This document shows positions 23,451 to 60,305 of a DNA stretch of 64,000 nucleotides, piece after piece. The notes under the pieces are model-generated. The model saw nothing but the letters and a program-made list of their open reading frames with translations. It searched no databases and was not told where the DNA came from. Position 1 is the stretch's first letter, and each line of letters begins with the position of its first letter. The DNA lies in IMG/VR virus record IMGVR_UViG_3300015241_000001, positions 36,816-100,815 of that record; one strand, given 5' to 3'. The position numbers were made by a program, and so were the translations under genes. Source of the DNA: a virus.

Positions 23451-23992
23451 AGTTCTGGTGGCGTACGAAAATGCCGCAGCCGCGGAGCCGACTTCTTCGT
23501 TGTTCTATCGGACCGTGGGCGATCCAGAGGTCTATCCCGAGGGTTGAGCTGACTCGGGTGAGTGACGTAGGGTTCGGTTACCTGTCTCCAGTGGTCTAAA
23601 GCTGCCAGCTGTTCTTCAGGTGTGCCTCGGTGGCAGAACAGAGGCGATATGAGCAGGCTAGAGCCGCCCAGTCGGCGCAGTAGCTCAAGCTTCTCTAGCA
23701 TGCGCAGTAGCTTGCTGACTCTGGACTTGTCGACACCGAGCTCTGCGGCAAAGTAAGTGTGCGGCCGAGCGCAGACTCCAGCGTAGCCAACCGCTTCGAC
23801 CAGAAGTAGCGCCAGCCTGTAAGCATCTGCTGGTAGCTTGGTGTGCGCTAGCTTCGATAAGTCAGTCAAGCCCATATATGAGAACCCTCCTGGAAAGTAA
23901 TAACGTCGACGTTTTGGCCCTGACACGGCCGCGTTGAGCTCGCCTAACGGTTGACCTTTGGAGTCGGTCACGATCAGCTTGTCAGCAGACAT
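23447..23992 (-). CDS. RepL-like winged helix protein
   Basis: 181 residues. Residues about 45-125 resemble the winged-helix domain of plasmid RepL replication proteins: a helix with TDLSKLA, a hydrophobic helix, AAELGVDKSRVSKLLRMLEKLELL as recognition helix, and a wing ending in SPLF. The C-terminus is basic and Pro-rich. It stands alone on the minus strand beside a gene-poor region with palindromes and G-tracts. It could be a replication initiator or a MarR-like repressor of divergent transcription. The protein encoded at 39722-40078 has the same layout. Confidence 0.7.
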   Translation of the reverse strand: MSADKLIVTDSKGQPLGELNAAVSGPKRRRYYFPGGFSYMGLTDLSKLAHTKLPADAYRLALLLVEAVGYAGVCARPHTYFAAELGVDKSRVSKLLRMLEKLELLRRLGGSSLLISPLFCHRGTPEEQLAALDHWRQVTEPYVTHPSQLNPRDRPLDRPRSDRTTKKSAPRLRHFRTPPEL

Positions 23993-24183
23993 TCAGGCTC
24001 CTCGAAGGCAAGCGCACGGCCTCTATAGATGTTGTACAGGCTTGCTTGAAAGTTGTCTACAGAGACCACAAAAGTGGTCGTAACTGTTGTGTTGTGTGGT
24101 AGTTAGTCCTATTCATATGAATATATAGAACACATGCATGCCGGCTGGAGCGAATAGAAGGCGAAGGAAGGGAAGGGATCCTC

Positions 24184-24201
24184 CTACATGAATCCGTGAA
24201 T
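24184..24201. promoter_or_regulatory. Partial operator copy 8
   Basis: CTACATGAATCCGTGAAT has the first 15 bases identical to the consensus copy at 12846 but lacks the final GTAA. There is no -35 or -10 at the usual spacing. It is either degenerate or a half-site. Confidence 0.5.
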
Positions 24202-24272
24202 AAATAGTAAATTTGAAAATTGGAATTTTGATAAAAAGTCCATGTGAGAGTCCAACGTTCTCGCAGGCGTCT

Positions 24273-24292
24273 CCCTACCCACCCCCACCCCC
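24273..24292 (-). other. G-quadruplex motif (minus strand)
   Basis: On the minus strand there are four G-runs of 5, 5, 3 and 3 with loops of 1, 1 and 2 nt, an ideal pattern for a parallel quadruplex. It lies next to the AT-rich palindrome in the control region. Confidence 0.6.
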
Positions 24293-24360
24293 TTGACTAG
24301 GCGCACGCGCGCGGGTGGAGCTTGCGCTTGGATGACGACGCGCGCACGAAGTGAAAGCTA

Positions 24361-24403
24361 GGGGGAAGGGGGAGAGTAGGCGTGGGGTCGAGCGCGGCGG
24401 GGG
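24361..24403 (+). other. G-tract array (plus strand)
   Basis: Four plus-strand G-runs of 5, 5, 4 and 5 separated by 2, 11 and 11 nt. It is a looser quadruplex candidate than the one on the opposite strand about 70 bp to the left. Confidence 0.4.
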
Positions 24404-24527
24404 AGTAGCCGAGGTAGTAGCAATGACTGCGACGACGGCCTAGGCGCACGCCACGGGCGGCGGCGGCACGACCGAGCACATGACTAGAAGGTAACGTTAC
24501 CAACACTAACTATGCTTGCGAATTGTG

Positions 24528-24556
24528 TTGACAATGGTTGCGCACAGTGGTGAACT
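24528..24556 (+). promoter_or_regulatory. Early-type promoter
   Basis: TTGACA (24528-24533), 17-bp spacer and TGAACT (24551-24556), a weak -10. The spacer begins ATGGTTGCGCA, which resembles the spacers of the promoters at 40363 and 46311. It would start the long plus-strand early region. Confidence 0.55.
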
Positions 24557-24614
24557 GTACCTGCAACATCGGACAGCGCAGCGTCCACACCAGCACCAGC
24601 ATGAGGTAGTCCAC

Positions 24615-24776
24615 ATGACACTCAACAAGCAACGCACAGCAATGGCACAAGCAATACGCGAAGCAGTCGGAGCAGGTAGGCCGATGACAGTCGTACATCC
24701 ATTGCTTACTACGGCAGTGAACTGGGTTCCGTGCCCGGATAGCCAGCTACAGACGTCCGTCGCGCCCAGCAGCTAG
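24615..24776 (+). CDS. Possible 53-residue protein
   Basis: A short frame with GAGGTAG before the ATG, giving a small protein with an Ala-rich helix (TAMAQAIREAVGAG). It stands between the early promoter and the first clear early gene. Weak evidence. Confidence 0.35.
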   Translation: MTLNKQRTAMAQAIREAVGAGRPMTVVHPLLTTAVNWVPCPDSQLQTSVAPSS

Positions 24777-24858
24777 CACGCAATCGCACGATCTTGCACG
24801 AAACTGCACGTTGACCACCACCACCACGAAGTCACTCACGTCACGAAAGAGGAAGACA

Positions 24859-46058: not shown

Positions 46059-46262
46059 CTAGATCCCGATATAACTACGCAGAGCATCATTCGCCACCTG
46101 CTGCAGCCACTCCTCCACGCCGATCCCCTGTGCCTGCGCCTGGTCCTCGACGGCCATTCTGATATCTAGGTCCAGGACAAAGCTCACGCGCCCCGTATGG
46201 TCGATCCTGGCGCGATCCTGCTTGGCTATAGTTGTCGTGCTGGAATGAACTGAAACTGGCAT
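46059..46262 (-). CDS. Ribbon-helix-helix-like DNA-binding protein
   Basis: 67 residues. RVSFVLDLDIRMAVEDQAQ, then a second helix VEEWLQQVANDAL, have the strand-helix-helix layout of Arc/CopG-type repressors. GGAGG lies 8 nt before the ATG at 46262. An operator copy is 23 bp further upstream, so this is a second candidate for a regulator of the operator family. Confidence 0.55.
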   Translation of the reverse strand: MPVSVHSSTTTIAKQDRARIDHTGRVSFVLDLDIRMAVEDQAQAQGIGVEEWLQQVANDALRSYIGI

Positions 46263-46408: not shown

Positions 46409-46843
46409 ATGCTTGTAGCCCACCACACCACTGCTGCCGACCACGCCCAAGGCGAATCCTTCAATCGCCCTCTCGAATCGATCATTGTCAGCGACGGCCA
46501 GCAAATCAACAGCCTGAGCCGGGAACTCGACAACAGCATCGACACCTACAACCCGGATTCCAACGACCGCTATGGCCGCTCCATGCGTGTCCGCAACCTC
46601 CAGGTAGCTTCCGCCCCTCCCCCGCAGCAGTCCACCCCTGAATCCCGTCTGTGGTCCTCCATCCTCCTCCAGATCTACAAAGAAGTGTCCCTCGGCGGCA
46701 TCAACTCGAAAGCCTACCGCGAGTCCCTGGTCAACCTCGACGCCATGAACTGGGTGATGGACTGCCTGGGGTACCTAGATAGTGACGCTTTTGGAAAACT
46801 GCTCGATCGGGCCGTTCTGGAGTTTGAGCTCGCCAAAGGCTGA
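46409..46843 (+). CDS. Hypothetical protein beside the origin candidate
   Basis: 144 residues. A polar, probably disordered first half and a helical second half (about 80-142, WSSILLQIYKEVSLGGINSK at its start). AAAAGGAGC lies before the ATG. It is the only plus-strand gene between the operator at 46285 and the iteron array, so a role in replication control is possible, but no family is recognised. Confidence 0.6.
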   Translation: MLVAHHTTAADHAQGESFNRPLESIIVSDGQQINSLSRELDNSIDTYNPDSNDRYGRSMRVRNLQVASAPPPQQSTPESRLWSSILLQIYKEVSLGGINSKAYRESLVNLDAMNWVMDCLGYLDSDAFGKLLDRAVLEFELAKG

Positions 46844-47406
46844 ATTTGGTTGCCTATAGTTGCTCACGAAAGCGCAACCTGTTGGTTGCATATAGGCCTT
46901 CTAGGCGCATTTCAACTCATCCATGGGGTAAAAAACTAAGTTGTTGATTTTAGGGTAGTTAGGTGCAGCCTAACTACCCCCCTACCCTCTGCCATCCTTT
47001 TAATGGCGGTAATCGACCTAACCCCATGATTCCAAACGACTTTAATTCCGCCAACCTCTCTAACGGTAATTGGCGGGCATGTCGGTAATAGGCGTTTCTT
47101 TCCCATATTTATTACCGCCATTACCGCCAATTACCGCCAATGCCATTTGGCGGTAATAACTATATTTGTTTTGTGTGTTTTAGGGGATTACCGCCATTAC
47201 CGCCATCACTATATATATATATACTTATAACTGAACCTGTTTTTGGCTCGGTTTTCGGTGACGTCGGGAGCCCTCAAATCTGGACTCTTGACTGATGGTT
47301 GCACTATAGCACGTGTGTGGAGAATTGCAATAGAGTGGGAAGAATTATTTTAGGTGGAACCTTGAGGGTGGCTCGAACTGCCTTCCCCTTTAGCTAACGC
47401 GCCGGC
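46844..47406. repeat. Iteron array with AT-rich element, candidate replication origin
   Basis: A 563-bp gene-free stretch. The 9-mer ATTACCGCC occurs exactly at 47111, 47120, 47130, 47187 and 47196 on the plus strand and as GGCGGTAAT at 47005 and 47149; near copies are at 47045, 47062 and 47082. Beside the last copy is an (AT)n run, CACTATATATATATATACTTATAA (47207-47230, partly quoted), suited for unwinding. The RepA-like helicase gene ends 177 bp further on. This layout is that of an iteron origin. Confidence 0.65.
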
Positions 47407-48492
47407 TTAGTTCATAAAAGGCTTGCGGTACTTCCGGGTGCGATTGTTGCCGATCTTCTCCAACATGCCTAGCTCGTCTGAGGCCCTGGAGGCTATCCAG
47501 CGCTCCAGTGTCCTGAAAACGATAGATAGCTCGTCTGCCCATGCTGCGAACTCGTCCTTGCCCCATTCTGTGCCATGCTCGGCCTTGTCCAGCTTGTCGT
47601 CGAGCATGGCAAACGTAGGCGAATCTGAATTCTGCGTGCTGGGGTCCATAATCACCAGGCGATGCTGCTCGTCAAAGTCGACATATAGCAACCTGCTAAT
47701 AGATTTGTTTTTGGATTCGATGCGGACTTTGCGATATCGGGGGCGTTTCTCTTCAGGTAAGTCTAGCCGAGTATGTTCGATCCCGATCAGGGTACTGGCT
47801 TCCTGGGACCAGGCTACGGACCCGAAAACCCGATCGGCCAGTACCGGATATGACTCGCCCTTGCGCATCTTGGCCATGCCAACAGTTCCCAGAATGGTCA
47901 CATGATGTTCAATACAGAACTTTTGCAGGGTTTGATAGTAGAAATCGCGCACGGCCCGCGAATCGTTGATCTTGCCGCCGCCTTCCATCATGTACTGCAG
48001 GCCTTCGATGAACAGGAAGTAGACTGGCTGTCGAGCTTGGTGGCAAAGTTCGCCATAAAGCCTTTGCAGCGTTTCCAGAGGGGTCTCACTGGAGCCTGGG
48101 TCCCAATCTCTGACCGGGAACTTGATAGGGTTGCTTAGCTCCTCCATCTCCATGTGGGCTATGCGGTCGAACAGGATGTCCCAGTTGCCAGAGCAGACGA
48201 TAGCCCCGCATTGGTGAGGTTCATCGCCGTCTTTGACTGCGTAGTCTAGGAAGGTACCGCTGGCAATGTAGGTTTCGAGGCAGCTCAATGCCAGGGCAGT
48301 CTTGCCAGAAGTACTGCTACCTATCATCAGATTGACGGAGCGGAGCGGAAATAGCCCTGGCACGCACGGCTTAGGAGCACGGTGCACTAGCTCAGGGCTG
48401 AGCTGATCGCGTGGGACTTCACGAGTATCGATTTCAAACATGTCTAAATCGAGTTCAGCAGGCGGAGGGGCAGGGGAGCGACGTTTAGCCAT
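47407..48492 (-). CDS. RepA-like hexameric helicase / AAA_25 RecA-fold ATPase
   Basis: 361 residues. Walker A GSSTSGKT (58-65), Walker B YFLFIEG (158-164) with Glu163, and a later loop with GSVAWSQEASTLIGIE (about 226-241) that resembles the RSF1010 RepA-type (AAA_25) family. The C-terminal about 60 residues look like a small winged-helix domain (WADELSIVFRTLERWIASR). It may be the replicative helicase or a helicase-loading ATPase. Its gene lies alone on the minus strand beside the iteron array. A DnaB-like gene is not present in this window. Confidence 0.75.
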   Translation of the reverse strand: MAKRRSPAPPPAELDLDMFEIDTREVPRDQLSPELVHRAPKPCVPGLFPLRSVNLMIGSSTSGKTALALSCLETYIASGTFLDYAVKDGDEPHQCGAIVCSGNWDILFDRIAHMEMEELSNPIKFPVRDWDPGSSETPLETLQRLYGELCHQARQPVYFLFIEGLQYMMEGGGKINDSRAVRDFYYQTLQKFCIEHHVTILGTVGMAKMRKGESYPVLADRVFGSVAWSQEASTLIGIEHTRLDLPEEKRPRYRKVRIESKNKSISRLLYVDFDEQHRLVIMDPSTQNSDSPTFAMLDDKLDKAEHGTEWGKDEFAAWADELSIVFRTLERWIASRASDELGMLEKIGNNRTRKYRKPFMN

Positions 48493-48838
48493 GGGAAGCC
48501 TTTCAGCGGTAGCGGTACGGGTCAGGGAGGGTCGGTGAGGGTGTGGTGGAGCGAGCTGGAGCGCTACTGAGCGACACAGGCGTAGAGTCGCAAATAGGCC
48601 TGAAAAAACCTATTGCGCTGACGTCTCGATTGGATCTAGTATGAGTGTCTACCAAGTTGGCTGCCCGCTTGATCTGGTAACTATGCTGTGTAGTGTATCA
48701 GATATTTGTGGTGTTGGGTAGCCCTAAGTGATAGAAAGTTTAGCGCGGTTTCGCACGGTGGCAGATGGTGGTTGACAGTTGCCTGGAGTGTGTGTAGAGT
48801 AAGTTTTGTTGACAGCGGAAGGGAGTCCGCGAGCAAGC
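48493..48838. promoter_or_regulatory. Intergenic region with divergent starts
   Basis: 346 bp between the divergent helicase and Cas4-like genes. The plus-strand promoter TTGACA-17-TAGAGT (48772-48800) is clear. The plus ribosome binding site GGAAGGGAG lies in a small hairpin (GCGGA/TCCGC, 48815-48830). For the minus-strand gene only a GAAAGG site is seen and no convincing promoter. No other gene is visible. Confidence 0.6.
48772..48800 (+). promoter_or_regulatory. Promoter of the recombination/replication operon
   Basis: TTGACA (48772-48777), 17-bp spacer and TAGAGT (48795-48800). It reads toward the Cas4-like nuclease gene. Confidence 0.65.
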
Positions 48839-50821
48839 ATGCCGATGAATTTTATCCCTGAGGTTTCTGACGATCTATCCGGATCTGCAACGCAAGTGAT
48901 TCCCGAGAAGCGCAGGATTTATGTCGATCGCACGCGGCACAAAGATCGGCAGCGATGCAAGCGGCTTAGATGGTTGGGTTATCACGCCGGCGCAACGTCG
49001 AATGGCATCCAGCCCAAGCGCAAGTCGATCCACTTAGTCATCGGCTCAGCAGTGCATGTAGGCATGGAGCGCCTCCTCTGGGGCATGCAGGATTACATCA
49101 ATCAGCACAACCTAACAGTCGATGAAGGGTTCGCAGCGATCTCTGGGATCAACACTCAGAAGGTCTGTGAGTTTATTGAAGACCAAGCTGTCGAAGCTGC
49201 CTTACGCGACCTTGTGGCCATGACTGAGTTTGGCGTCGAGCTGGACGACCAGGAGAAGTTCGCAGCAGAAAAGGCTAAGACTGCACTGACGACTGGGTCG
49301 CTGAACTCAGCAACGGCTGCCGCTGGTGGCGACTCGATGATCGAGATCACGTTTGAGGATATGCCGCTGCCCACGCCGCTGCCTGTTCCCGAGCAAGCTA
49401 TTAAGTTTGCTCAGACCGTGCAAGCTAGCTTGGATATGCTGTCAGGAGCCAACGCCCTGTCTACCGTTGACTGGGGAGCGCCGATCTATCCAGCATCCAA
49501 GAACCTGGTCGAGATCATGGAAGGCAATGACCCGGCGATGATTCTTAGCGATCCAGCACTCGCCGCTATCGAGATCAACGTCCCCAGCGAGCAAGCAAAC
49601 GCCATGAAAACCGCCGGACTCGACAACTACCTGCTGGAAGAACTGGCCGCCCAGATCGAAGCCCTAGTCCGTGCCTATGCGCGTCGTCGCTGGAAGCCAC
49701 TCCTCGATCAGTTCGAGATCCTCGAAGTCGAGCGTGAAGGCGAATGGCAGTTAGGCAAGATCGAGTACGATCGCTGGGTTATCGAGCCTGCAATCACATC
49801 CGCACCGGGAGCTGTAGACCCTTTCTATAGCCAGACTCTGAAGAGGTATGTTGACCAATACGAAATCTGGTTCATGTCCCGGCATGATGCGCTGTTGAAG
49901 GAACGTCAGACAGGATACCTATACCTGCAGTCATATAAAACTACCGGCTCATGGGACCGGCGCAAGGAAGCTGACGCACAAATAGACATGCAAGGCCTCT
50001 CCGAAGCTGTCGATGTCGAGAAGCGATTCTCGGAAGCCTGGCATATCATCCAACGCAGTGGCGGGCCAATCACAAGCATTGACAACCTGGCCGATCAGAT
50101 GGGCGATGGTCAGCAGCTAAATCGTCTAGTGAACCTGCGCACGGCTAATTGGCTAGCCACGCTCCCAGAGCCACCACGCATCCTGGGTGTCCGCTATGAG
50201 TACATGAACAAGGGCGCACGTCGTCAAGACAAGAACGATACTGAGATGCCGAATCGATACGTGGCCGATACGCCGCTGATCCGGGCCTATAAAACCGACG
50301 GCATCACCGCCGATGATCGCAAGTGGGGTTGGTCTTACGAAGTCTGCGATGCCTACGGCAAGTCCAAACGTCTCGACTACCGCACCTGGAAGAAGGCACC
50401 GGTATGGCGGTTCATGACGATCAAGCAGTGGATTGATTTGCTCGATGCGGACAAAGTCCAGCCTGAGTCCTATGACAAGGAAGGTAACCGGCTAGACGCG
50501 CTTGCTGACCAGTTCATGACACCGATTCATGTCTACCGCAACGAAGATGACATGCGGGACATGTTGGAGCAGCTCCAAGCGGAAGAAGAAGAGAATGCGC
50601 GAGACGTGCTGGCGGTTTACGCTGTCCGTTCCGACCCGGGCAAGATGCGCTCCGAGCTCAACAAGCGCTTCTCGCAGAACCGCGCCAGCTGTTCGTACCC
50701 CGGCAAATGCCAGAACCATGAGATCTGCTATGGCAGCTCCGAGATCCGTCGTGACCCTGAAGGCAGCGGCCTGTATCAGATCCGTGTAGCCAACCATCCG
50801 CAGGAGAATTATCAACCGTAG
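48839..50821 (+). CDS. Cas4/RecB-like PD-(D/E)XK nuclease with Fe-S cluster
   Basis: 660 residues. Cys40 and a C-terminal group Cys618, Cys624 and Cys630 could hold a 4Fe-4S cluster as in Cas4 and AddB. The RecB-like nuclease motifs are GSAVHVGME (His73), an Asp in RHDALL (Asp350) and QSYK (Gln364, Lys367), where the usual Glu is replaced by Gln. The middle part is unusually large. It should act as a single-strand exonuclease in phage recombination or DNA turnover. The start is ATG 48839, or 48845. Confidence 0.75.
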   Translation: MPMNFIPEVSDDLSGSATQVIPEKRRIYVDRTRHKDRQRCKRLRWLGYHAGATSNGIQPKRKSIHLVIGSAVHVGMERLLWGMQDYINQHNLTVDEGFAAISGINTQKVCEFIEDQAVEAALRDLVAMTEFGVELDDQEKFAAEKAKTALTTGSLNSATAAAGGDSMIEITFEDMPLPTPLPVPEQAIKFAQTVQASLDMLSGANALSTVDWGAPIYPASKNLVEIMEGNDPAMILSDPALAAIEINVPSEQANAMKTAGLDNYLLEELAAQIEALVRAYARRRWKPLLDQFEILEVEREGEWQLGKIEYDRWVIEPAITSAPGAVDPFYSQTLKRYVDQYEIWFMSRHDALLKERQTGYLYLQSYKTTGSWDRRKEADAQIDMQGLSEAVDVEKRFSEAWHIIQRSGGPITSIDNLADQMGDGQQLNRLVNLRTANWLATLPEPPRILGVRYEYMNKGARRQDKNDTEMPNRYVADTPLIRAYKTDGITADDRKWGWSYEVCDAYGKSKRLDYRTWKKAPVWRFMTIKQWIDLLDADKVQPESYDKEGNRLDALADQFMTPIHVYRNEDDMRDMLEQLQAEEEENARDVLAVYAVRSDPGKMRSELNKRFSQNRASCSYPGKCQNHEICYGSSEIRRDPEGSGLYQIRVANHPQENYQP

Positions 50822-50850
50822 TTGACAAAGGTTTCGCGTAGTGGTATTGT
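50822..50850 (+). promoter_or_regulatory. Strong promoter
   Basis: TTGACA (50822-50827), 17-bp spacer, TATTGT (50845-50850), the best -35/-10 pair of the early-type family. It starts directly at the stop codon of the nuclease gene and drives the next operon. Confidence 0.7.
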
Positions 50851-50945
50851 AGCTCCTGAGAGCAAGACAACAGAGACAACAGATAAGTAAATGATCCTCT
50901 TCAGCACCCTCTTCTCCATTACCACACATTTCAGAAGGAGCACCA

Positions 50946-51182
50946 ATGCCCAGCGAATACCGCAACCCGAAGCTCAGCAAGAGCGACCCAATGGTGGTCG
51001 AGCATATCAAGATTCCGAAGTCAGTTCTAGCCTCATTGAACATCTCAGCCGCAAGCCGTCAACGTCATCGCTCGTTTGTAGTGCGCGAGATCCTGGAAAC
51101 ATGGAAGGTACAGTTCGATAAAGACATGGCTGCGAATGCAGTAGCAGCAGCTAAGTCGAATAAGAAAACTTCAGCGGCTTAG
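50946..51182 (+). CDS. Ribbon-helix-helix-like small protein
   Basis: 78 residues. VEHIKIPKSVLASLNISAAS followed by HRSFVVREILETWKVQF gives the strand-helix-helix order of ribbon-helix-helix proteins. Basic Ala/Lys tail. Preceded by AGAAGGAGC. Probably a DNA-binding regulator of the recombination operon. Confidence 0.6.
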   Translation: MPSEYRNPKLSKSDPMVVEHIKIPKSVLASLNISAASRQRHRSFVVREILETWKVQFDKDMAANAVAAAKSNKKTSAA

Positions 51183-51265
51183 TTAGACCGCAACGTAGCA
51201 CAGCTCACAACACAACACAACACAACACAATAACGCTTACCTAATCGCAGAAGGAGCATTACTTC

Positions 51266-52303
51266 ATGGCACGTTCGGGAGTCATCTATGGAGCCTCAGG
51301 CACATTCAAATCGACCGCAGGCAAGCACTTCTCCAGGTACATCTACAAGAAAACTGGCAAAGCCACGCTACTATTCAGTCTGGATGGCGGCGGCTGGGGA
51401 CCAATGGAGCCTGAGATTCGTGGTGGAATCATCCTTCCGTACCGCGGCAACACGCAAGTCCCTCTGCCAGTGCTGCGCAAGATAAGCCAGGGCTACTGGC
51501 CTGAGGATTCCGGCGAGACTGAAATCAGCAAAACCAACCTGCGCTCGATTGATTGGGCACGGTTCGGAGGCTTGTTCGTGGAAGGTCTGTCGTCTATCAG
51601 CCAAGCCTTGATGCGGCATCTAGCCGACCAGCAGATCAAGACTGGCGAGGAAGCTACTAGTCCGTTCTCGCAGCGTGTGGTCGTCGAAGGCCAAGTAGTC
51701 ACTGAAACGTTTGCCGGCAACAGCAAAGCGCACTATGGCTTTGTCCAAAACCAGCTCTATTCCCTAGTCACCAACTTCACCTCTCTTCCCCTTGAATACG
51801 TTTTGTTCTCTGCACTTGAATCACGTACTGAAGAAGATGATCGCTCGACGATCTACGGGCCACAGGTCGCAGGCAAAAAGGCTACCGCACTCGTTCCGTC
51901 CTGGGTCGGCGACTGTCTCCACTCTGAAGCTTACCCAGTTGAGAAGTTCATCCAGGTCCCTGATCCCAAAGACGCGACGAAGAAAATAGAAACCAGAGTC
52001 GTCGAGACTCTAGTCCGCACGTACTTCGTCAAGCATCCAGACCCTAGCACTGGAATCATGTTCCCGGCGAAACCTCGAATCGACTCTGAGAAAGTCGGCG
52101 AACTGATGAAGCTATTTCCAGGCGGATACTATGAGCCGTCGCCGTCCCATGGCCTCGACACCTATCTCGAAGCTATTGACTCATTCAACGAGTCCTCAGG
52201 AGATGACGCTGGTGACTGGCGTGCTGAAGTCGATAAAAAGTTTGGTCGTGTGACTGTGGCTGGACCGATTGCCACAGCTTCACTTCCTAAAGCCACCAAG
52301 TAA
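51266..52303 (+). CDS. Sak4-like RecA-fold ATPase (AAA_24 type)
   Basis: 345 residues. Walker A GASGTFKST (about 9-17) near the N-terminus and SLDGGGWGP plus FVEGLSSIS (about 111-119) as Walker B-like segments. This layout is that of phage Sak4/AAA_24 proteins, RecA-related annealing or recombination factors. The protein is longer than typical Sak4 and ends in a Ser/Asp-rich and then Ala-rich tail. It is followed by a putative ssDNA-binding protein, the usual partner. Confidence 0.7.
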   Translation: MARSGVIYGASGTFKSTAGKHFSRYIYKKTGKATLLFSLDGGGWGPMEPEIRGGIILPYRGNTQVPLPVLRKISQGYWPEDSGETEISKTNLRSIDWARFGGLFVEGLSSISQALMRHLADQQIKTGEEATSPFSQRVVVEGQVVTETFAGNSKAHYGFVQNQLYSLVTNFTSLPLEYVLFSALESRTEEDDRSTIYGPQVAGKKATALVPSWVGDCLHSEAYPVEKFIQVPDPKDATKKIETRVVETLVRTYFVKHPDPSTGIMFPAKPRIDSEKVGELMKLFPGGYYEPSPSHGLDTYLEAIDSFNESSGDDAGDWRAEVDKKFGRVTVAGPIATASLPKATK

Positions 52304-52394
52304 GACAGAGACAGAGAACCTGCTGCTTGCTGTGCTGCCTTGGTCAACGTTGACCTGAAGTAGAACCATCAACCTGAAGAAAGGACCGAACCTA

Positions 52395-52634
52395 ATGACA
52401 ACCGAGAATGAAGTCGTAGGAGTTGGAGCACCGGCACCGACAAGCATTACCGCAACACCAGCTTCGACAGCCTCAGTAACTACATCGCTGCCAAAGCAGA
52501 ACACTACCGTTTCGATCACACTGGACGCTGATGTTTATGCATACTACGCTGCAAAGGCTAAGGAAGACGATCGTAGCCTGGCCAAGTATTTGCAGCGCGA
52601 GCTGAAGGCTAAGTTTGAAGTAGCTGAACTCTAA
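52395..52634 (+). CDS. Ribbon-helix-helix-like protein with Thr/Ala/Pro-rich N-terminus
   Basis: 79 residues. The first 40 are low complexity; the C-terminal 40 have TVSITLDADVYAYYAAKAKE and SLAKYLQRELKAKF, the ribbon-helix-helix order. Lies between the Sak4-like and ssDNA-binding genes. A regulator or small DNA-binding partner. Confidence 0.6.
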   Translation: MTTENEVVGVGAPAPTSITATPASTASVTTSLPKQNTTVSITLDADVYAYYAAKAKEDDRSLAKYLQRELKAKFEVAEL

Positions 52635-52719
52635 GCCAGTCAGCAGCTCAGACTAGGCAACCCAACCCTCACCGCTCAGCCTGTCTGAGCCATAACAGCA
52701 CCGAAAGGAAGCACTAACA

Positions 52720-53439
52720 ATGGCTACCAATCCCGCAACTGATTTTGCATCACCCGTATACATGGAAGAGACGGCTGGCGACGCATCTCTCGCTGACGTA
52801 GTCGTAGTCGACCTCAACGATCCCAATCTGCTGCTGGCAGAGTTCGACACCAACTCTGACATCGATCCATATGCAGCTCCCCCGCCAGTTGCTGACGGCA
52901 CTTACCTCGTCAAGATCAAGCAGATTGACGTCAAGGGACCGAACGGCGAGCTGGTACGTCACACTGTACGCACCGGCACCGGCGAGAATGCCAAAGCCTA
53001 TGCGTTCACGGCTCTCGAAGCGCGCATCATCGATCCTGGCGCTCCGTTCGATAACTTCGTTGTTTTTGACCGGTTTGTCAGCACGCTGCCTGCCCGTAAC
53101 GGTGGCGTGCCGATCGTGCGCATCCTTACCTGCCTGGGCGTACAGCTTCCGGCTCGTATCAATGCAAAGATCTTGCTCGATGCATTCTTCAATGCAGTAG
53201 CGAGCGAACCGGAACTTCGCATCGAGACCGAGTGGGAAGGTTCTGTGAGCAAGGAAGATGCTGACAAGCTGTATGCCGCTGGCGTGGACAAAAAGAAGTT
53301 TCCACGGGTTTATGGAATGCGTAAGTTCCCACAAGACAGCAAGGGTAACCCGATTCCTGAGATCGTTGTTGATTCGCCGATTGGCAAACTGGAGCTGCGA
53401 GCGAACGTTCGCATTACAGGGTACTTTCCTAAGGCGTAA
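52720..53439 (+). CDS. Putative ssDNA-binding protein
   Basis: 239 residues, with an acidic N-terminal 45 residues and a beta-rich core (about 55-215) with alternating hydrophobic strands. The last strand LRANVRITGYFPK ends the protein. Its position directly behind a Sak4-like ATPase and before helicase and polymerase genes suits a phage single-strand-binding protein. It does not have a typical acidic SSB tail at the C-terminus. Function inferred from context. Confidence 0.5.
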   Translation: MATNPATDFASPVYMEETAGDASLADVVVVDLNDPNLLLAEFDTNSDIDPYAAPPPVADGTYLVKIKQIDVKGPNGELVRHTVRTGTGENAKAYAFTALEARIIDPGAPFDNFVVFDRFVSTLPARNGGVPIVRILTCLGVQLPARINAKILLDAFFNAVASEPELRIETEWEGSVSKEDADKLYAAGVDKKKFPRVYGMRKFPQDSKGNPIPEIVVDSPIGKLELRANVRITGYFPKA

Positions 53440-53485
53440 CCAAGATTGGCGAGCAGTGGTGTGCAAGCTGATGAAGTGAACCGAA

Positions 53486-53516
53486 GTGAGGTCTAGTCCT
53501 AAAGGCTAGGCCTCAC
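53486..53516 (+). terminator. Strong hairpin after the ssDNA-binding gene
   Basis: An 11-bp stem (GTGAGGTCTAG / CTAGGCCTCAC, one G-T pair, 9-nt loop). No U-run follows, so partial termination or mRNA processing is more likely than a full stop, since the genes after it are on the same strand. Confidence 0.5.
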
Positions 53517-53544
53517 CTCTATAACTCGGACCCGGAGCACGAGC

Positions 53545-53799
53545 GTGGGATATAACAACATAGACGAAGACTCAGCGCAGTCTGCAGCAGACAGGGAATC
53601 CGAAGCTATCAGGATTCTGAACCGGATCGGCGACACAATGGTCCACCTGATGCATTCAGGCGAATACGTTCCAGGAGTGTCGATGAATGCCCGAATCTTT
53701 GTATCTGAGCTAGTCGATACACTGGAGCTTACAGGACGCCTGACAATATCGGTCAAGCAGTTGTGGTGGTTGCGCGACCTCAACGAGAAGGTGGACTGA
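53545..53799 (+). CDS. Hypothetical helical protein
   Basis: 84 residues from a GTG start with GGAG 6 nt upstream. Helical, with an acidic N-terminus; no family recognised. It is followed after 7 bp by the HNH gene. Confidence 0.55.
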   Translation: MGYNNIDEDSAQSAADRESEAIRILNRIGDTMVHLMHSGEYVPGVSMNARIFVSELVDTLELTGRLTISVKQLWWLRDLNEKVD

Positions 53800-53806
53800 T
53801 TCAGCC

Positions 53807-54187
53807 ATGGCTAAATTCGCAGGCGGAGTCAGCGTCGACAAAAAAGGCTACCTGGTGATCAAGGCCGGGAAGCATCGAGACCGTAGAGTTCATATCATGA
53901 TTGCAGAGGCGATGCTGGGCCGGGAGTTACTGCCTGATGAAGATGTGGATCATAGAAATGCGGACAAGCTCGACTGCGACTGGCGTAACCTGAAGGTTAT
54001 CAGCAAGGCTGAGCACGGTGCTGTCTCGAACCGCCAGCGATGGTTCCTGGAAAACCGAGCCGAGCAAGAACGTGCTGAATGGGAAGCTTGGATACACAAC
54101 GGCGGCAATCGCCCTGATGAAGGCCAAGACGTAGATATAACAGACGAAGACATAAAGTTCAACCCAGAGGATTTCCCAAATGCCTAA
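53807..54187 (+). CDS. HNH endonuclease
   Basis: 126 residues. VHIMIAEAMLGRELLPDEDVDHRN (about 27-50, quoted in part as VHIMIAEAML and VDHRN) and DWRNLKVIS (about 57-65) are the His-Asn-His core of HNH_3-type nucleases of phages. A basic Arg-rich helix follows. It overlaps the helicase start by 8 nt. It may be a free-standing homing enzyme or a nicking enzyme used in replication or packaging. Confidence 0.8.
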   Translation: MAKFAGGVSVDKKGYLVIKAGKHRDRRVHIMIAEAMLGRELLPDEDVDHRNADKLDCDWRNLKVISKAEHGAVSNRQRWFLENRAEQERAEWEAWIHNGGNRPDEGQDVDITDEDIKFNPEDFPNA

Positions 54188-55724
54188 CGATTACGATCTT
54201 GACCTATACCACGATGATGAGCCTGCTGAAGTAGCTGCAGCACAGCCTCACGATCCGGCTCTGAACCTGACCTTGGCTGATGTAGCTGTAGACGAAGTCA
54301 GTGCGGTGCAAGCCTCTACCGAAGACCTCTACATCAACTTCGACGAAGACGGCGATGGTTCGACCTCGTTCGATCCACAGCAAGGCACGCTACGAGAAAC
54401 CGAATGCAGTTTTATTACGGGGTGTGCGGGTTCTGGCAAGTCGTATACCCTCCGTCAAAGGATCGCTGAAGATGCCAGTTATGCAGTGCTAGCGGCCACA
54501 ACCGGTATATCGGCTATCAACCTAAACGCGGCCACGATTCATTCTCTGCTGGGTTTTCGAGATACCGATTCGCTCCGTGACGCCTACATCAGCGGCAGCG
54601 CACAAGGCAAGCTCAAAAAGATCGTTGGCGAAGGCTACAAGAACGTTGTGATTGATGAGGTCAGTATGCTCAGTCATGAGGCCCTGGATCTGATTGTCAA
54701 GATATTTGATAACGTCAATCAGAACCTGGCTTACCGCGAAAAAACGATTGGCCTGATCCTGACTGGCGATTTCTGTCAGCTACCTGCTATTCCAGACAAA
54801 CCGCGTGTTCCCGGCAGCAAAGTCAAGATGCCGACGCCATGGGCTTTCGATGCCCAGTCATGGAAGCGGTTCGATAAGAACACACTGAAGCTGACAAAGG
54901 TGTGGCGGCAGTCGGACGAGCGATACCTGGCAGCCTTGAACTACGCACGCCAGGGCAAAGGCGACATGGCCGCTGGCGCACTCGTTTCCGCTGGAGTCAC
55001 GTTTGCCGGGACCTCAGATTCTAACTTCGACGGCACAACAATCGTAGGCAAGAACGAACAAGTGGACCGGTTCAACGAGGCGTCGTTGATGAAGCTGCCT
55101 GGAAGGTTGATTGGACTGCCGTCACGCCGCTGGGGCCGCGAAAGATCGGAATGGAAGAACATTCCAGTACAGACTAAAATCCGCGAAGGTGCTTATGTCA
55201 TGCTGCTGGTCAACAAGTACAACGGCTTTCAGGATCTAGAGTATGCCAACGGAGACTGCGGTCACGTGCGAGGCATTCAGCCGAGTCAGAATGGTGCGCC
55301 ACCACAGGTAATGGTAGAGCTGGCTCGCAATAACCGGATTGTATATGTGTCAGCTATTATCCGGGCTGTGGAGACCAAGGACAAGCCGGATGACATGACA
55401 GGTGAGATTGATATCAATCTGCGTGATGACGTGGGTGGGTATATTCCACAAGCGCATTATCGATGCAACGCGAGGAAATATGTATCGGGGCAGCTGGAGT
55501 ACTTTCCAATCCGGTTGGCGTATGCCACGACATGCCACAAAGCTCAGGGGTTGTCGCTGGATCGCGTACAGATCGACATGCGCGATTGGATGATGAAGAG
55601 TCCTGCGATGACGTATGTGAGTTTGTCTCGGTGCAGGACGATCGAGGGTCTACGGATTATAGGCCGACCAGATGACGTGCGTGACAAGTGCAGGATTGAT
55701 CCGAGGGTGCTTCGATGGCTATAG
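54180..55724 (+). CDS. SF1B DNA helicase (RecD2/Dda/Pif1-like)
   Basis: 514 residues. An acidic N-terminal 70 residues precede motif I GCAGSGKS (81-88). Motif II is VIDEVSML (157-164), motif III GDFCQLPAI (about 196-204), and motif VI region YATTCHKAQGLSLDRV (about 446-461) with VSLSRC following. These are the motifs of 5'-3' superfamily 1B helicases. Its role is probably origin opening, fork restart or recombination, as for T4 Dda. It lies in the replication operon before the polymerase. Confidence 0.88.
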   Translation: MPNDYDLDLYHDDEPAEVAAAQPHDPALNLTLADVAVDEVSAVQASTEDLYINFDEDGDGSTSFDPQQGTLRETECSFITGCAGSGKSYTLRQRIAEDASYAVLAATTGISAINLNAATIHSLLGFRDTDSLRDAYISGSAQGKLKKIVGEGYKNVVIDEVSMLSHEALDLIVKIFDNVNQNLAYREKTIGLILTGDFCQLPAIPDKPRVPGSKVKMPTPWAFDAQSWKRFDKNTLKLTKVWRQSDERYLAALNYARQGKGDMAAGALVSAGVTFAGTSDSNFDGTTIVGKNEQVDRFNEASLMKLPGRLIGLPSRRWGRERSEWKNIPVQTKIREGAYVMLLVNKYNGFQDLEYANGDCGHVRGIQPSQNGAPPQVMVELARNNRIVYVSAIIRAVETKDKPDDMTGEIDINLRDDVGGYIPQAHYRCNARKYVSGQLEYFPIRLAYATTCHKAQGLSLDRVQIDMRDWMMKSPAMTYVSLSRCRTIEGLRIIGRPDDVRDKCRIDPRVLRWL

Positions 55725-55939
55725 CTGAAGCTGAACGTAAGACAATCCTGCACGTTCGCCCTCGGGAATGTTCTTGCTGCCTTGAGTTTGAAACAGTCGA
55801 TGTGACTGAGGGCGAAGCGTATGCACAATTTATATCCTCGCTGAATGTGTCGGCGGATAAGTTAGAACTGGCTATAGAACTCTGGAAGGGCGTCTATCCA
55901 CATGGAGTTGTAAAACGCCACGATGTCACAGTGAATTGA
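55715..55939 (+). CDS. 74-residue protein with Cys pair
   Basis: An acidic protein with ECSCCLEFE (about 18-26). It overlaps the helicase stop by 10 nt. Function unknown. Confidence 0.55.
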   Translation: MAIAEAERKTILHVRPRECSCCLEFETVDVTEGEAYAQFISSLNVSADKLELAIELWKGVYPHGVVKRHDVTVN

Positions 55940-55942
55940 ACT

Positions 55943-56689
55943 ATGAAGCATAGCGAACTCAAACTAAAAGATCGCAGCTCGGGCATGACTACACTGGCAT
56001 GGCACGACGCCTGCAAAAAGGAAGCTGAGGAATCTATGGCGGAACATGAAGTGGCTGGAATCGATCCGCAGAAACTAGTCGTTCTGGAAACGATCGAGGA
56101 TAAAAACGTAGCTGAGTACATCCGTCAGCAGATGGTCACCTCTATTACTGAGTTACAAAAACAGATCGTCTACGATCACCACCAAGACATGATGGATACT
56201 GAAAGAGGACTTGTGAGCCCGGACAGTTACACGCACGATCAGGCTGTTGAAGATGAAGCTAAGAGTTCAGTTGTGATTGATGCGAAGGCTGAAGCAGTCG
56301 AGGCTGAAGCTGAAGATGGCATCCCAGCTCACCTGCTAGACGTTCCACCGCATCTCTGGCCAACGTACGGTGGCATCGAGCGCAACAGCATGCCTAATCC
56401 TAACCAGCTGCCGGACTGGACGGCTGAGGCCCCGCCACAAGCTCATCGTCGCGTCCGCACTGAGCCACGCGCCAAGCACGTTCAGTCAGCATTCAACAAG
56501 ACGTTTACGCGTGACAACCCGAAGCGGCCAGGGATGAACCTGCCAATCAAGCGTGCCGAGAGTAAGAACCCTGAAGGTTTGACGGGTCGGCAGTTGAAGA
56601 AGGCACGCAAAGCTTTACAACGTGAACAGAAGGCTGTTGATTTAGCACGAACAGAGATGTTCGAGAAAGTAACTGAGGGGGTAGAGTAA
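55943..56689 (+). CDS. Charged hypothetical protein in replication operon
   Basis: 248 residues: a helical acidic N-terminal part (1-115), a Pro-rich linker (about 125-160) and a basic, Lys/Arg-rich helical C-terminus (about 195-240). The stop overlaps the MazG-like start by one base. Perhaps a DNA-binding accessory of the helicase or polymerase; no family recognised. Confidence 0.6.
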   Translation: MKHSELKLKDRSSGMTTLAWHDACKKEAEESMAEHEVAGIDPQKLVVLETIEDKNVAEYIRQQMVTSITELQKQIVYDHHQDMMDTERGLVSPDSYTHDQAVEDEAKSSVVIDAKAEAVEAEAEDGIPAHLLDVPPHLWPTYGGIERNSMPNPNQLPDWTAEAPPQAHRRVRTEPRAKHVQSAFNKTFTRDNPKRPGMNLPIKRAESKNPEGLTGRQLKKARKALQREQKAVDLARTEMFEKVTEGVE

Positions 56690-57138
56690 TGGCATTGGAC
56701 GCAGATGATTGGGGAGTAGCTGAAGCAACTCCAAGTGACCGTGAGATCGAGGAACACGATGCGGGTTATGCGATTACGCGTCTAGTCCAGCTCGTGCATG
56801 AACGCAACGTAGCAGTTGGCTGGTGGTCGGATCTATATACAAACATGCCGTTGGATCGCAACGTCGGCGAGATGCTGATGCTAGTCGTGTCCGAGATCTC
56901 CGAGGCTATGGAAGGCCATCGCAAGAGTCTATACGACGATCACATTATCGGCAGGCCTATGGTCGAAGTCGAACTCGCGGACGCACTGATTCGCATCTTC
57001 GATATCGCAGGCGGGATCAAGTTCAACGGTCAGCCTTTGGACCTGGGCGGCGCTTTCGAGGAGAAGATGGCTTATAACCGAGAGAGATTGGATCACAAAG
57101 CAGCAAGCCGTTTGGAAGAGAACGGTAAGAAGTACTAA
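56689..57138 (+). CDS. MazG-like nucleotide pyrophosphohydrolase
   Basis: 149 residues. SEISEAMEGHRK (about 66-77) and VEVELADALIRIFD (about 88-101) give the ExxE ... ExxD metal-binding pattern of the all-alpha NTP pyrophosphatase (MazG) superfamily. It could hydrolyse non-canonical dNTPs, or lower ppGpp as proposed for phage MazG. It is immediately upstream of the UDG-polymerase fusion, whose glycosylase part would also guard against uracil in DNA. Confidence 0.8.
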   Translation: MALDADDWGVAEATPSDREIEEHDAGYAITRLVQLVHERNVAVGWWSDLYTNMPLDRNVGEMLMLVVSEISEAMEGHRKSLYDDHIIGRPMVEVELADALIRIFDIAGGIKFNGQPLDLGGAFEEKMAYNRERLDHKAASRLEENGKKY

Positions 57139-57227
57139 CAGCCGCGGCCCGCACAACTTTCCATCAACACTCAAGCCGTGCTAACGTAGACGGCCTAGCC
57201 CTTGTACGTTTGAAAGCTGACCTGCTT

Positions 57228-60200
57228 ATGTATCGGACCAAACCTTCGTCTTGTGGATCTTGCGTGTTGTGTTCTCATGGCAACGACTTCAGTCAACCTG
57301 AAGGTTTGGGTTTGCTGGGGGTTGCTATCGTCGGTGAAGCATCAGGCGAGAAGGAACAGAAGGATCTCCTGCCATTCCGTCCTTATGCGCCTGCAGGCAT
57401 GGTGCTCGAACGGTCGCTACGTAGGCTAGGCTACACACGCGATCAGTTCGCTATCACTAACATCATTCGCTGCAGGCCGATTGATAATTTGCTCGATGGC
57501 ATGTACTACGAGCAGGAAGCTATCAGGCAGTGCTCGGCTAACCTCAAAGCATTCCTGACCAAGTTCCAGCCTAAGGTTGTCGTAGCATTAGGTAATGTAG
57601 CTTTCCGCACGCTCACCGGCATCTCAGGCGAGAAGCGCACGATTAGTCATATGCGTGGCTATGTATTCCGCGCGCTGCCGGAGTTCTGCGAGGCGGCAGG
57701 CATCAAGGATCTGCTGGTCGTGCCAACGTACCACCCTTCGTTCATTCGGCGCGGCAGCACACATCTCATGGGCGTGTTTTGCCGAGACATTCAACGCGCT
57801 GTCAACATCCGCACAGGAAAAGATAAGTCGTTCATTCTCGACCTACCTGATTTCGCTGGAGCCGAGATCAAATGGATTGAGAACCCTGATAACAACGAAC
57901 CGTTCGGGTCACCTCCGCCAGAGTTCTATCAGCAGATTGCTGAGACATGGCTAGCGAAATATAACCTGCGCTACCAACTCAAGCCGAACCTGCGCGACCT
58001 AGACATCTTCTGCCGAGACATCAAAGCCAAGTCAGAAGCTTATGCAGCACAAACCCCAGACATGAAAGCAGCGGATCTGCTGGCGCTGTCGTGGGATCTA
58101 GAAACACACGAGTCCGACTCACTCGACGAAGATGCAAGCGATGGCTACACGAACACCGAGATCAGGTTGTTTCAAGCTAGCATTCAACCCGGCACCGGCA
58201 TCGCCATGCCCTGGGAAGGGAACTACATTCACGCTGCCCGGTTCTTGATGAAGCTCGCGCTGCCTAAAGTCGGACACAACTCCTGGCTGTTCGATCAAAA
58301 GGTAATGCGAGCTGTCGGTGAGCGTGATTTTGGTAGCCGCGCCAACCTCCAACTGAGCGGTGTTAGTCATGATACGATGCAGATGTTTCATTACTGGCAG
58401 CCGGATCTGCCCGCGCATCTGCAGTATGCCTCGTCGTTCACGCAGTTCCCTTTCCCATGGAAGCATTTCAATGGCTCCAATCTAGAGCTATACGGCATTG
58501 CTGACGTAGACGCAGCTTTACGGCTGTATATCGTCATGCGCAAAACAATGGAAGACCGTCAGATCTGGTTTGACAATGAAAACCCGCAGCGTCAGGCAGC
58601 TGGTTACTTAGCGATGGTACAAGACGTGCGGCCGATTCTTGCTGACATGGAAGACCGTGGCCTGCCTGTAGACGATGAGCGGCGGATAGCTCTCGATAAG
58701 GATTTTGAAGAAGTCCAAACCGAGTTGATGGTTTACCTGGATGATAAGTTTCCCGATGAGGCCCGGAAGCTGACTCCCAAAGAAGGTTATAAAGGAATGC
58801 CTGCGCGGGTAAAGGAGTTGTTGGAAGAGCTACGGCCTACCATGATCCCTGAAGTCGAAGGCGTGAAGCCTGGCAAGGCTCCGACGAAGAAGGCAATAGC
58901 CGAAGCGAGCAAGATAGCATTCGCATCACGTTACGCGAGTCTACAACCTGATGAATGGGAACTGATCCGCTCAACTAAATTCTTTGATCCACCGACCAAG
59001 AACGAAGAAGGCGAAGAAGAGCCTGGCGAAAGTTATTTCTTCGACCAGCGTGTGTTTGGGCAACAACAACTGGACAACGGATTGAAAACTGAAGGCAAAA
59101 CTCTCTGGTGCCGTGTCTATCAGTTCTCTCCGAACTCATCACAACAGCTCATGAACTACATGCGGTTCCGTGGGCATAAAGTCCCGACTAAGAAAGGCGG
59201 CGGCGAAACCACAAACAAGACAGAACTAGTCAGGCTGAGCTCGAAGCACGGCGACGATTTCTATACGAAGGTGATCGAGTGCCGGGAACTGGGCAAGATG
59301 CGCGGAACCTATATCGAAGGCTTCAAGCCGCATGCTGATGGCAGAGTACATTCCACTTTTACGTTTGACACGGCAACAATGCAGTTGAGTTCACGCAATC
59401 CAAATACGCAGAACGCGCCGAAGCATGGCAGGCTTGCTAAGGCCGTCAGGTCGATGATCCGGCATCCTGGCACTAAGCAGATGGTTGAGTGGGATTTCAA
59501 GGCTTATCACGTGCTCACTACAGGATTCGAAGCTCAGTCAGCAAATTATATGCGCTTGGCTCGGCTAGACATGCACAGCTTCGTAGCCGGCCACTTCAAC
59601 AAGAACTGGAATGCATTCAACTTGTTTTCGGAGTCTGACGAAGAGTTGCTGGCGAAATTCAAATGGTTCAAGTCTGACGATGCGCGGAAGGTGATCCGGG
59701 ATAAGAAAGCCAAGCCGAGTATCTTAGGCATTGGCTTTGGTCTAGGCGTAAAGAAGCTCTATGATATGAACCGCGAGTCGTTCGCTAATCTCAAGGAAGC
59801 TGAAAACCTGATGAACCTGATCAAGGATCTGTTTCCTGAGGTTTTCAGGTGGCAGAATCAGATTAGGGAGCTGGCGCATAAGCAACAGTTTCTGCGTAAC
59901 CGGTTTGGAGCGATACGTTGGTTGTATGAGGTTTATACACCGGACGGTCGCGGTGGCTGGGCTCCCGGCGAGCAGTCTGAACAGGCGATTGCGTTCTTGC
60001 CGGCTAGTTCGGCATTCGGAAACATCCGAGAATGCATGAAGGCGATGGACAGGAAAGGGTTGCTGGAAAAGTGGGAGATGGTCAACACTGTGCATGACTC
60101 GTTTGTGTTTCTGGTTGAGCCGGAGTTGATGCCACAGCATATCGCTGAGATGTATCCTGTGCTGAATGCTCCGAGTAAGGTATTGATCGATCCAGTATTG

Positions 60201-60305
60201 GCACCAGAAGGGTTGCAAGTTGATGTTGAGTGCTCAGTTGGAGCTACCTGGGCTGACCTGAAAGAGATCAAGATTCCGCAGGAGGTTTTAGCCTCATCGG
60301 TTTAG
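57228..60305 (+). CDS. Uracil-DNA glycosylase / DNA polymerase A fusion
   Basis: 1025 residues. Residues 1-200 are a family 4-like uracil-DNA glycosylase: Cys pair(s) at 9/12/15, Cys82 and Cys102 for a 4Fe-4S cluster, motif A GEASGEKE (36-43) and motif B HPS (169-171). A 3'-5' exonuclease domain follows: DLE (290-292), HN-x4-D (350-356) and Y-x3-D (422-426). The polymerase has motif A WDFKAYH (755-761, catalytic Asp756), motif B K829-x3-L833-G-x2-F837-G and motif C HDS (956-958). Positions equal to E. coli Glu710, Phe762 and Glu883 are His, Leu and Ser. Start ATG 57228; a TTG at 57210 is an alternative. Confidence 0.9.
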   Translation: MYRTKPSSCGSCVLCSHGNDFSQPEGLGLLGVAIVGEASGEKEQKDLLPFRPYAPAGMVLERSLRRLGYTRDQFAITNIIRCRPIDNLLDGMYYEQEAIRQCSANLKAFLTKFQPKVVVALGNVAFRTLTGISGEKRTISHMRGYVFRALPEFCEAAGIKDLLVVPTYHPSFIRRGSTHLMGVFCRDIQRAVNIRTGKDKSFILDLPDFAGAEIKWIENPDNNEPFGSPPPEFYQQIAETWLAKYNLRYQLKPNLRDLDIFCRDIKAKSEAYAAQTPDMKAADLLALSWDLETHESDSLDEDASDGYTNTEIRLFQASIQPGTGIAMPWEGNYIHAARFLMKLALPKVGHNSWLFDQKVMRAVGERDFGSRANLQLSGVSHDTMQMFHYWQPDLPAHLQYASSFTQFPFPWKHFNGSNLELYGIADVDAALRLYIVMRKTMEDRQIWFDNENPQRQAAGYLAMVQDVRPILADMEDRGLPVDDERRIALDKDFEEVQTELMVYLDDKFPDEARKLTPKEGYKGMPARVKELLEELRPTMIPEVEGVKPGKAPTKKAIAEASKIAFASRYASLQPDEWELIRSTKFFDPPTKNEEGEEEPGESYFFDQRVFGQQQLDNGLKTEGKTLWCRVYQFSPNSSQQLMNYMRFRGHKVPTKKGGGETTNKTELVRLSSKHGDDFYTKVIECRELGKMRGTYIEGFKPHADGRVHSTFTFDTATMQLSSRNPNTQNAPKHGRLAKAVRSMIRHPGTKQMVEWDFKAYHVLTTGFEAQSANYMRLARLDMHSFVAGHFNKNWNAFNLFSESDEELLAKFKWFKSDDARKVIRDKKAKPSILGIGFGLGVKKLYDMNRESFANLKEAENLMNLIKDLFPEVFRWQNQIRELAHKQQFLRNRFGAIRWLYEVYTPDGRGGWAPGEQSEQAIAFLPASSAFGNIRECMKAMDRKGLLEKWEMVNTVHDSFVFLVEPELMPQHIAEMYPVLNAPSKVLIDPVLAPEGLQVDVECSVGATWADLKEIKIPQEVLASSV

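Follow-up and report, generated by a model that had tools for sequence, protein, structure and literature searches.

A palindromic array of short repeats beside a RepA-type ATPase gene as the probable replication origin of a large tailed phage

Results

Genes and features at the locus

Two convergent genes are separated at their 3' ends by 563 bp of intergenic DNA, within which lie an array of short repeats and an adjoining (TA)n run. The window, that is, the whole 64,000-nucleotide stretch of DNA analysed, comprises bases 36,816-100,815 of a 100,815-bp virus record. The features of the locus and the other genes considered are as follows (window positions).

19768-21975: large terminase gene, about 25 kb from the array
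46059-46262, minus strand: gene for a 67-aa protein, ribbon-helix-helix-like by eye only; alternative repeat-binding candidate, within 1 kb of the array
46409-46843, plus strand: gene for a 144-aa protein, convergent with the ATPase gene
46844-47000, no strand: hairpin-forming stretch, with a perfect 11-bp stem at 46953-46979
47001-47205, no strand: array of (A)TTACCGCCA repeats, an imperfect palindrome of about 200 bp centred at 47100, with seven exact and four near copies
47001-47090, minus strand: left half-array, degraded (copies at about 47004 -, 47044 +, 47061 -, 47071 - and 47080 -; one of the five exact)
47110-47205, plus strand: right half-array, intact (copies at 47111 +, 47120 +, 47130 +, about 47148 -, 47187 + and 47196 +; all six exact)
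47145-47245, no strand: candidate unwinding element, with (TA)n at about 47207-47223; overlaps the right half-array
47407-48492, minus strand: RepA-type (AAA_25) ATPase, 361 aa, candidate replicative helicase and candidate initiator; its 3' end faces the array
48806-60305, plus strand: replication/recombination block, encoding a nuclease-like protein (by eye), Sak4, a possible SSB (by eye), HNH, a Dda-like helicase, a MazG-like pyrophosphatase and a UDG-PolA polymerase

The record represents a complete genome of about 100.8 kb, since its ends repeat over 77 bp and a contig of a near relative crosses the join. The virus is a tailed phage, as judged from its terminase, portal and major head protein genes. 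Among the 128 predicted genes of the genome, profile searches gave no integrase match. The UDG-PolA polymerase (57264-60305, plus strand) carries a uracil-DNA-glycosylase-superfamily domain (PF03167, 3.2e-18) at its N-terminus, joined to a family A polymerase domain. ACAAC units form a short tandem run at 51206-51229, just 5' of the Sak4-like gene. The near relative, which is about 92% identical, is represented by the contigs IMGVR_UViG_3300012926_000004 and _000015. One contig ends at the equivalent of window 47582 and the other at that of 46433, so that the array falls between them, as though assembly had been interrupted there.

Anatomy of the repeat array

The initial annotation of this DNA had counted seven exact copies of the repeat (five plus, two minus) within 200 bp and at least three near copies, followed by an (AT)n run, and all of this was borne out. 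In the whole record, ATTACCGCC has seven exact copies, all within 47004-47205: at 47111, 47120, 47130, 47187 and 47196 on the plus strand and at about 47005 and 47149 on the minus strand. Four further copies with up to 2 mismatches to ATTACCGCCA (47044 on the plus strand; 47061, 47071 and 47080 on the minus strand) bring the total to 11. With seven copies in 300 bp, this is the densest 9-mer cluster of the genome, without a comparable non-trivial one in any other stretch of 300 bp; in 20 simulated genomes no 9-mer exceeded four. A short-repeat cluster unique in the replicon, as expected of iteron origins, is present here.

The array is a dyad rather than a simple direct-repeat array. Its halves (47001-47090 and 47110-47199) align as inverted repeats with a score of 71, while the maximum in 300 dinucleotide shuffles was 37. 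The reverse-complemented left half follows the order of the right half: tandem copies, inverted copy, spacer and outer copy. No promoter in the genome is linked to a copy, the exact copies being confined to the interval between the convergent 3' ends. Blastn searches with the array against plasmids and phages returned nothing, or short matches at chance level. A second word, GTTGC(N)TATAG, occurs exactly or in near copies four times within 1 kb around the array (46320, 46849, 46885 and 47298), against only about three occurrences in the rest of the genome.

Candidate melting element, hairpins and GC skew

By nearest-neighbour stacking energies, the 100 bp starting at 47145 are the least stable of the whole genome. 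The 30-bp and 80-bp stability minima also fall at this element, and its 50-bp stretch ranks second in the genome. The array is adjoined by an easily melted, AT-rich element of the kind expected at an iteron origin. No DnaA boxes were found in the genome. The hairpin-forming stretch at 46844-47000 is not a clear intrinsic terminator because no T-run follows the stem. The largest predicted non-coding gap (23451-24858, 1.4 kb) contains the second least stable region of the genome and lies near the GC3-skew maximum at 24.9 kb.

The raw cumulative GC skew, plotted on the circular genome, is lowest at 47,237 and highest at 28.7 kb; a bidirectional origin at the array would give this pattern, which lends it weak support. 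The GC-skew check at 47 kb proposed in the initial annotation gave partial support: the minimum is a plateau, with near-minimum values extending to about 54 kb. A two-replichore fit placed the breakpoint at 47.2-47.9 kb without a transcription term, at 53.2 kb with that term and at 7.2 kb when a free intercept was allowed; the breakpoint thus depends on the model.

The adjacent ATPase and neighbouring genes

The ATPase gene ends 202 bp from the nearest repeat copy. Its product matches Pfam AAA_25 (PF13481), the family that includes RSF1010 RepA, at 7.6e-5 and 22.8 bits, below the curated cut-off of 27. A distant ortholog, L167:1710-2858, scores 41 bits, above this cut-off, and aligns with the ATPase over its full length (40.7% identity, E about 2e-96). 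Once this ortholog is taken into account, the predicted protein is of the RepA type, and its initial description as RepA-like is right because a full-length, 41%-identical ortholog clears the AAA_25 cut-off. The ATPase is the sole AAA_25 match in the genome and is under purifying selection (dN 0.008 and dS 0.28 against the near relative). The absence of DnaB, first stated for the window, holds for the complete genome, in which DnaB_C (PF03796) has no match.

Profile searches also gave no match to the primase families DnaG zinc ribbon, Prim-Pol and Toprim_3 or to the plasmid initiator families Rep_3 and RepA_N. The ParA expected in a ParABS system (PF13614) was absent at E ≤ 1. A tblastn search with the ATPase against phages and plasmids returned nothing at 1e-5; at E ≤ 10 the matches were weak and non-significant, those in phages being to primase-helicases. 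Single-protein scans of IMG/VR found the near relative alone, and an alignment-guided scan added only primase-helicase-like relatives.

By eye only, the C-terminal 75 or so residues of the ATPase resemble a winged-helix DNA-binding domain, and ERWIASR is identical in the window protein and its L167 ortholog. A winged helix was supported neither by Pfam nor by the single-sequence model: AlphaFold run on the single sequence gave an all-helical domain without a significant PDB match, and a pLDDT of 36 for the whole protein. Pfam gave no supported family for the 67-aa protein.

Related arrays in other viruses

Viral contigs were scanned with the inverted pair TTACCGCCA N4-30 TGGCGGTAA, which matched 21 contigs. 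The motif was the search key and its presence is therefore not evidence; the neighbouring genes, the position relative to orthologs and the palindrome are. At least five exact copies of TTACCGCCA within 250 bp were found in two of the 21 (L167 and L168), and in both an AAA_25 gene ends just before the array. The linkage of an array to a replication protein gene, that of an AAA_25 helicase, was consequently seen in three viruses (the window phage, L167 and L168), among which the copy spacing varies.

L167 belongs to G013, a genome of 99,275 bp with a 127-bp end repeat, in which 44 of the 128 genes of the window's phage were matched (identities: head protein 88%, Sak4 74%, PolA 59%, RepA about 41%). 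The G013 array lies in the orthologous interval, between the RepA gene and the gene for the 67-aa-protein homolog, which is kept beyond the array. Six of the seven TTACCGCCA copies of G013 lie in it, so that the cluster is again unique in its replicon. It is palindromic as well (score 64 against a shuffle maximum of 34), is flanked on either side by the second least stable 50-bp and 100-bp stretches of that genome, and also lies upstream of a small gene. Motif, symmetry and position are conserved in this distant relative; elsewhere in the intergenic region the two phages cannot be clearly aligned. No match to the 144-aa protein was found in G013, and therefore the array goes with RepA and not with the 46409-46843 gene. 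In the GC skew of G013, nothing sharper than a broad turn was seen, at about 63-67 kb.

L168, an 11-kb contig, encodes an AAA_25 helicase (39.6 bits) without direct BLAST similarity to the window ATPase; relatives of this helicase are annotated as replicative helicases or primases of Gram-positive phages. The L168 array, with five exact and two near copies, starts 44 bp past the helicase stop. No array was found in three phages with helicases related to that of L168. Three exact TTACCGCCA copies each were present at L163:530-563 and L172:193-274; an AAA_25 match is absent from the L172 record, and the one in the L163 record is weak and distant from the copies. These copies may reflect chance or another use. 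A tandem scan (ATTACCGCC twice) was rejected as an array finder, as examples among the matches listed resemble Gly-rich coding repeats, and a scan of viral contigs for out-of-frame tandem motifs found none. Among the papers listed by a literature search (PMC), none connected TTACCGCCA with an origin.

Discussion

We consider it likely that the region at 46.95-47.25 kb is an iteron-type replication origin with a P4/PICI-like layout, located 3' of the helicase gene. The array, its dyad, its uniqueness, the instability of the DNA and the position 3' of the helicase gene were read directly from the sequence. The strongest evidence for the putative origin is comparative: this is the probable start site of genome copying because the word recurs at the corresponding place in a distantly related virus. 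As first proposed, an iteron-type origin next to a RepA-like helicase gene remains the best-supported reading, with a dyad replacing the simple direct-repeat array. The dyad symmetry and its conservation in the distant virus are new.

The chief rival is that the repeats serve as a platform for a small DNA-binding protein, for example the 67-aa protein, in transcription regulation or genome segregation, like pSM19035 omega/ParB. Binding of a dimeric protein to contiguous short repeats, direct or inverted, is known (PMC9499535), the 67-aa candidate is encoded within 1 kb and conserved in G013, and the G013 array is upstream of a small gene. However, the window array lies between convergent 3' ends with no copy at any promoter, ParA has no match, the arrays accompany RepA-type helicase genes in three viruses, and the window array adjoins the least stable DNA of its genome. 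We therefore regard such a platform as rather unlikely.

It is quite improbable that the palindrome acts as RNA, as a bidirectional terminator or a structured transcript between the convergent genes. Its folding is predicted to be strong (DNA z -5.9), with an 11-bp hairpin at 47130-47157, and the convergence of the genes would suit such a role. However, a hairpin does not require head-to-tail copies of 9-10 bp, G013 keeps the array without a convergent partner gene, terminator-like sites are at chance level without a clear T-run, and there was no Rfam match. Least probable is a packaging (pac/cos) recognition site or a palindromic mobile-element remnant: repeat arrays are known at some pac sites and an inverted duplication could have produced the palindrome, but in the window phage and G013 alike about 25 kb separate the array from the large terminase gene and the element occurs only once, inspection by eye showed no target-site duplication, and the place beside RepA is kept while other intergenic DNA is not clearly alignable.

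If the array is a replication origin, binding of an initiator to the TTACCGCCA sites would come first. For this role we favour the C-terminal domain of the adjacent RepA-type ATPase as a candidate, with the conserved 67-aa protein (gene at 46059-46262) as the alternative. Binding to the dyad would then melt the adjoining AT-rich/(TA)n DNA, and RepA-type hexamers could load onto the opened strands. The mirror-image half-arrays would suit the loading of one ring per direction. The UDG-PolA polymerase of the phage would then carry out extension, and primers would be made by the host or by a protein not recognised as a primase.

A broader proposal is tentative and, in our view, doubtful as a whole: the stand-alone RepA-type helicases of large phages might define an undescribed replicon type that crosses lineages, with a shared TTACCGCCA word, palindromic arrays 3' of the gene and recognition by the C-terminal domain. 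The protein would be both initiator and self-loading bidirectional helicase, with no need for DnaA, a separate Rep initiator or DnaB.

Little is known of how replication starts in large phages that lack both DnaB and any recognised initiator. The 200-bp candidate with its conserved 9-bp word and adjacent helicase gene makes this question directly testable. If the RepA-type helicase does bind the dyad, origin recognition and helicase loading in both directions would fall to a single protein, an economy that, to our knowledge, is documented chiefly in satellites such as P4. In addition, TTACCGCCA would serve as a marker for locating origins in unannotated viral contigs.

Several known systems share parts of this layout. 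The lambdoid O protein origin, ori-lambda, is a phage origin with iterons adjoining AT-rich DNA; in lambda, however, gene O itself contains the iterons and the host supplies DnaB, whereas the window array lies between genes and the phage encodes a helicase of its own. The oriV of RSF1010 (IncQ) is served by RepA, RepB' and RepC, and its iterons are direct repeats of about 20 bp beside AT-rich DNA. The RepA-type helicase and the iterons beside AT-rich DNA are common to both. The window units, in contrast, are 9-10 bp long and occur in both orientations, and no RepC-type initiator or RepB-type primase was recognised in the window phage with general primase and Rep profiles. The locus is not a demonstrated RSF1010 replicon, and its layout fits P4/PICI better.

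A phage-encoded helicase of the RepA/AAA_25 type is also known from Lactococcus phage F13, whose gp46 is homologous to RSF1010 RepA and was shown to unwind DNA (PMC8965321). That paper, unlike the present analysis, describes no iteron array (the term "iteron" is absent from its text). The pSM19035 omega/ParB system uses contiguous short repeats in direct and inverted orientation (PMC9499535), and those of the window array also occur in both. It differs in that the window phage has no ParA match and its array is linked to a helicase gene and AT-rich DNA.

In P4, the gene for the alpha protein, a helicase/initiator, is followed by the origin, which has ori and crr. In PICIs, with the order pri-rep-ori, the origin comes straight after the 3' end of the initiator gene and has iterons on either side of AT-rich DNA (PMC6092414). 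An origin at the array would likewise lie immediately 3' of a candidate helicase/initiator gene in the window phage, L167 and L168, and the window phage also shares the short iterons with AT-rich DNA. The window phage differs in having a RepA-type AAA_25 ATPase instead of Pri-Rep or the alpha protein, in having no recognised primase-bearing initiator (none of the primase families was matched), in its 200-bp dyad, and in being a phage of full size (100 kb) rather than a satellite. The different type of ATPase and the lack of a primase match place it outside the P4/PICI group. Because their origins lie directly 3' of the initiator gene and their iterons flank AT-rich DNA, P4 and the PICIs may nevertheless be regarded as its nearest functional analogue.
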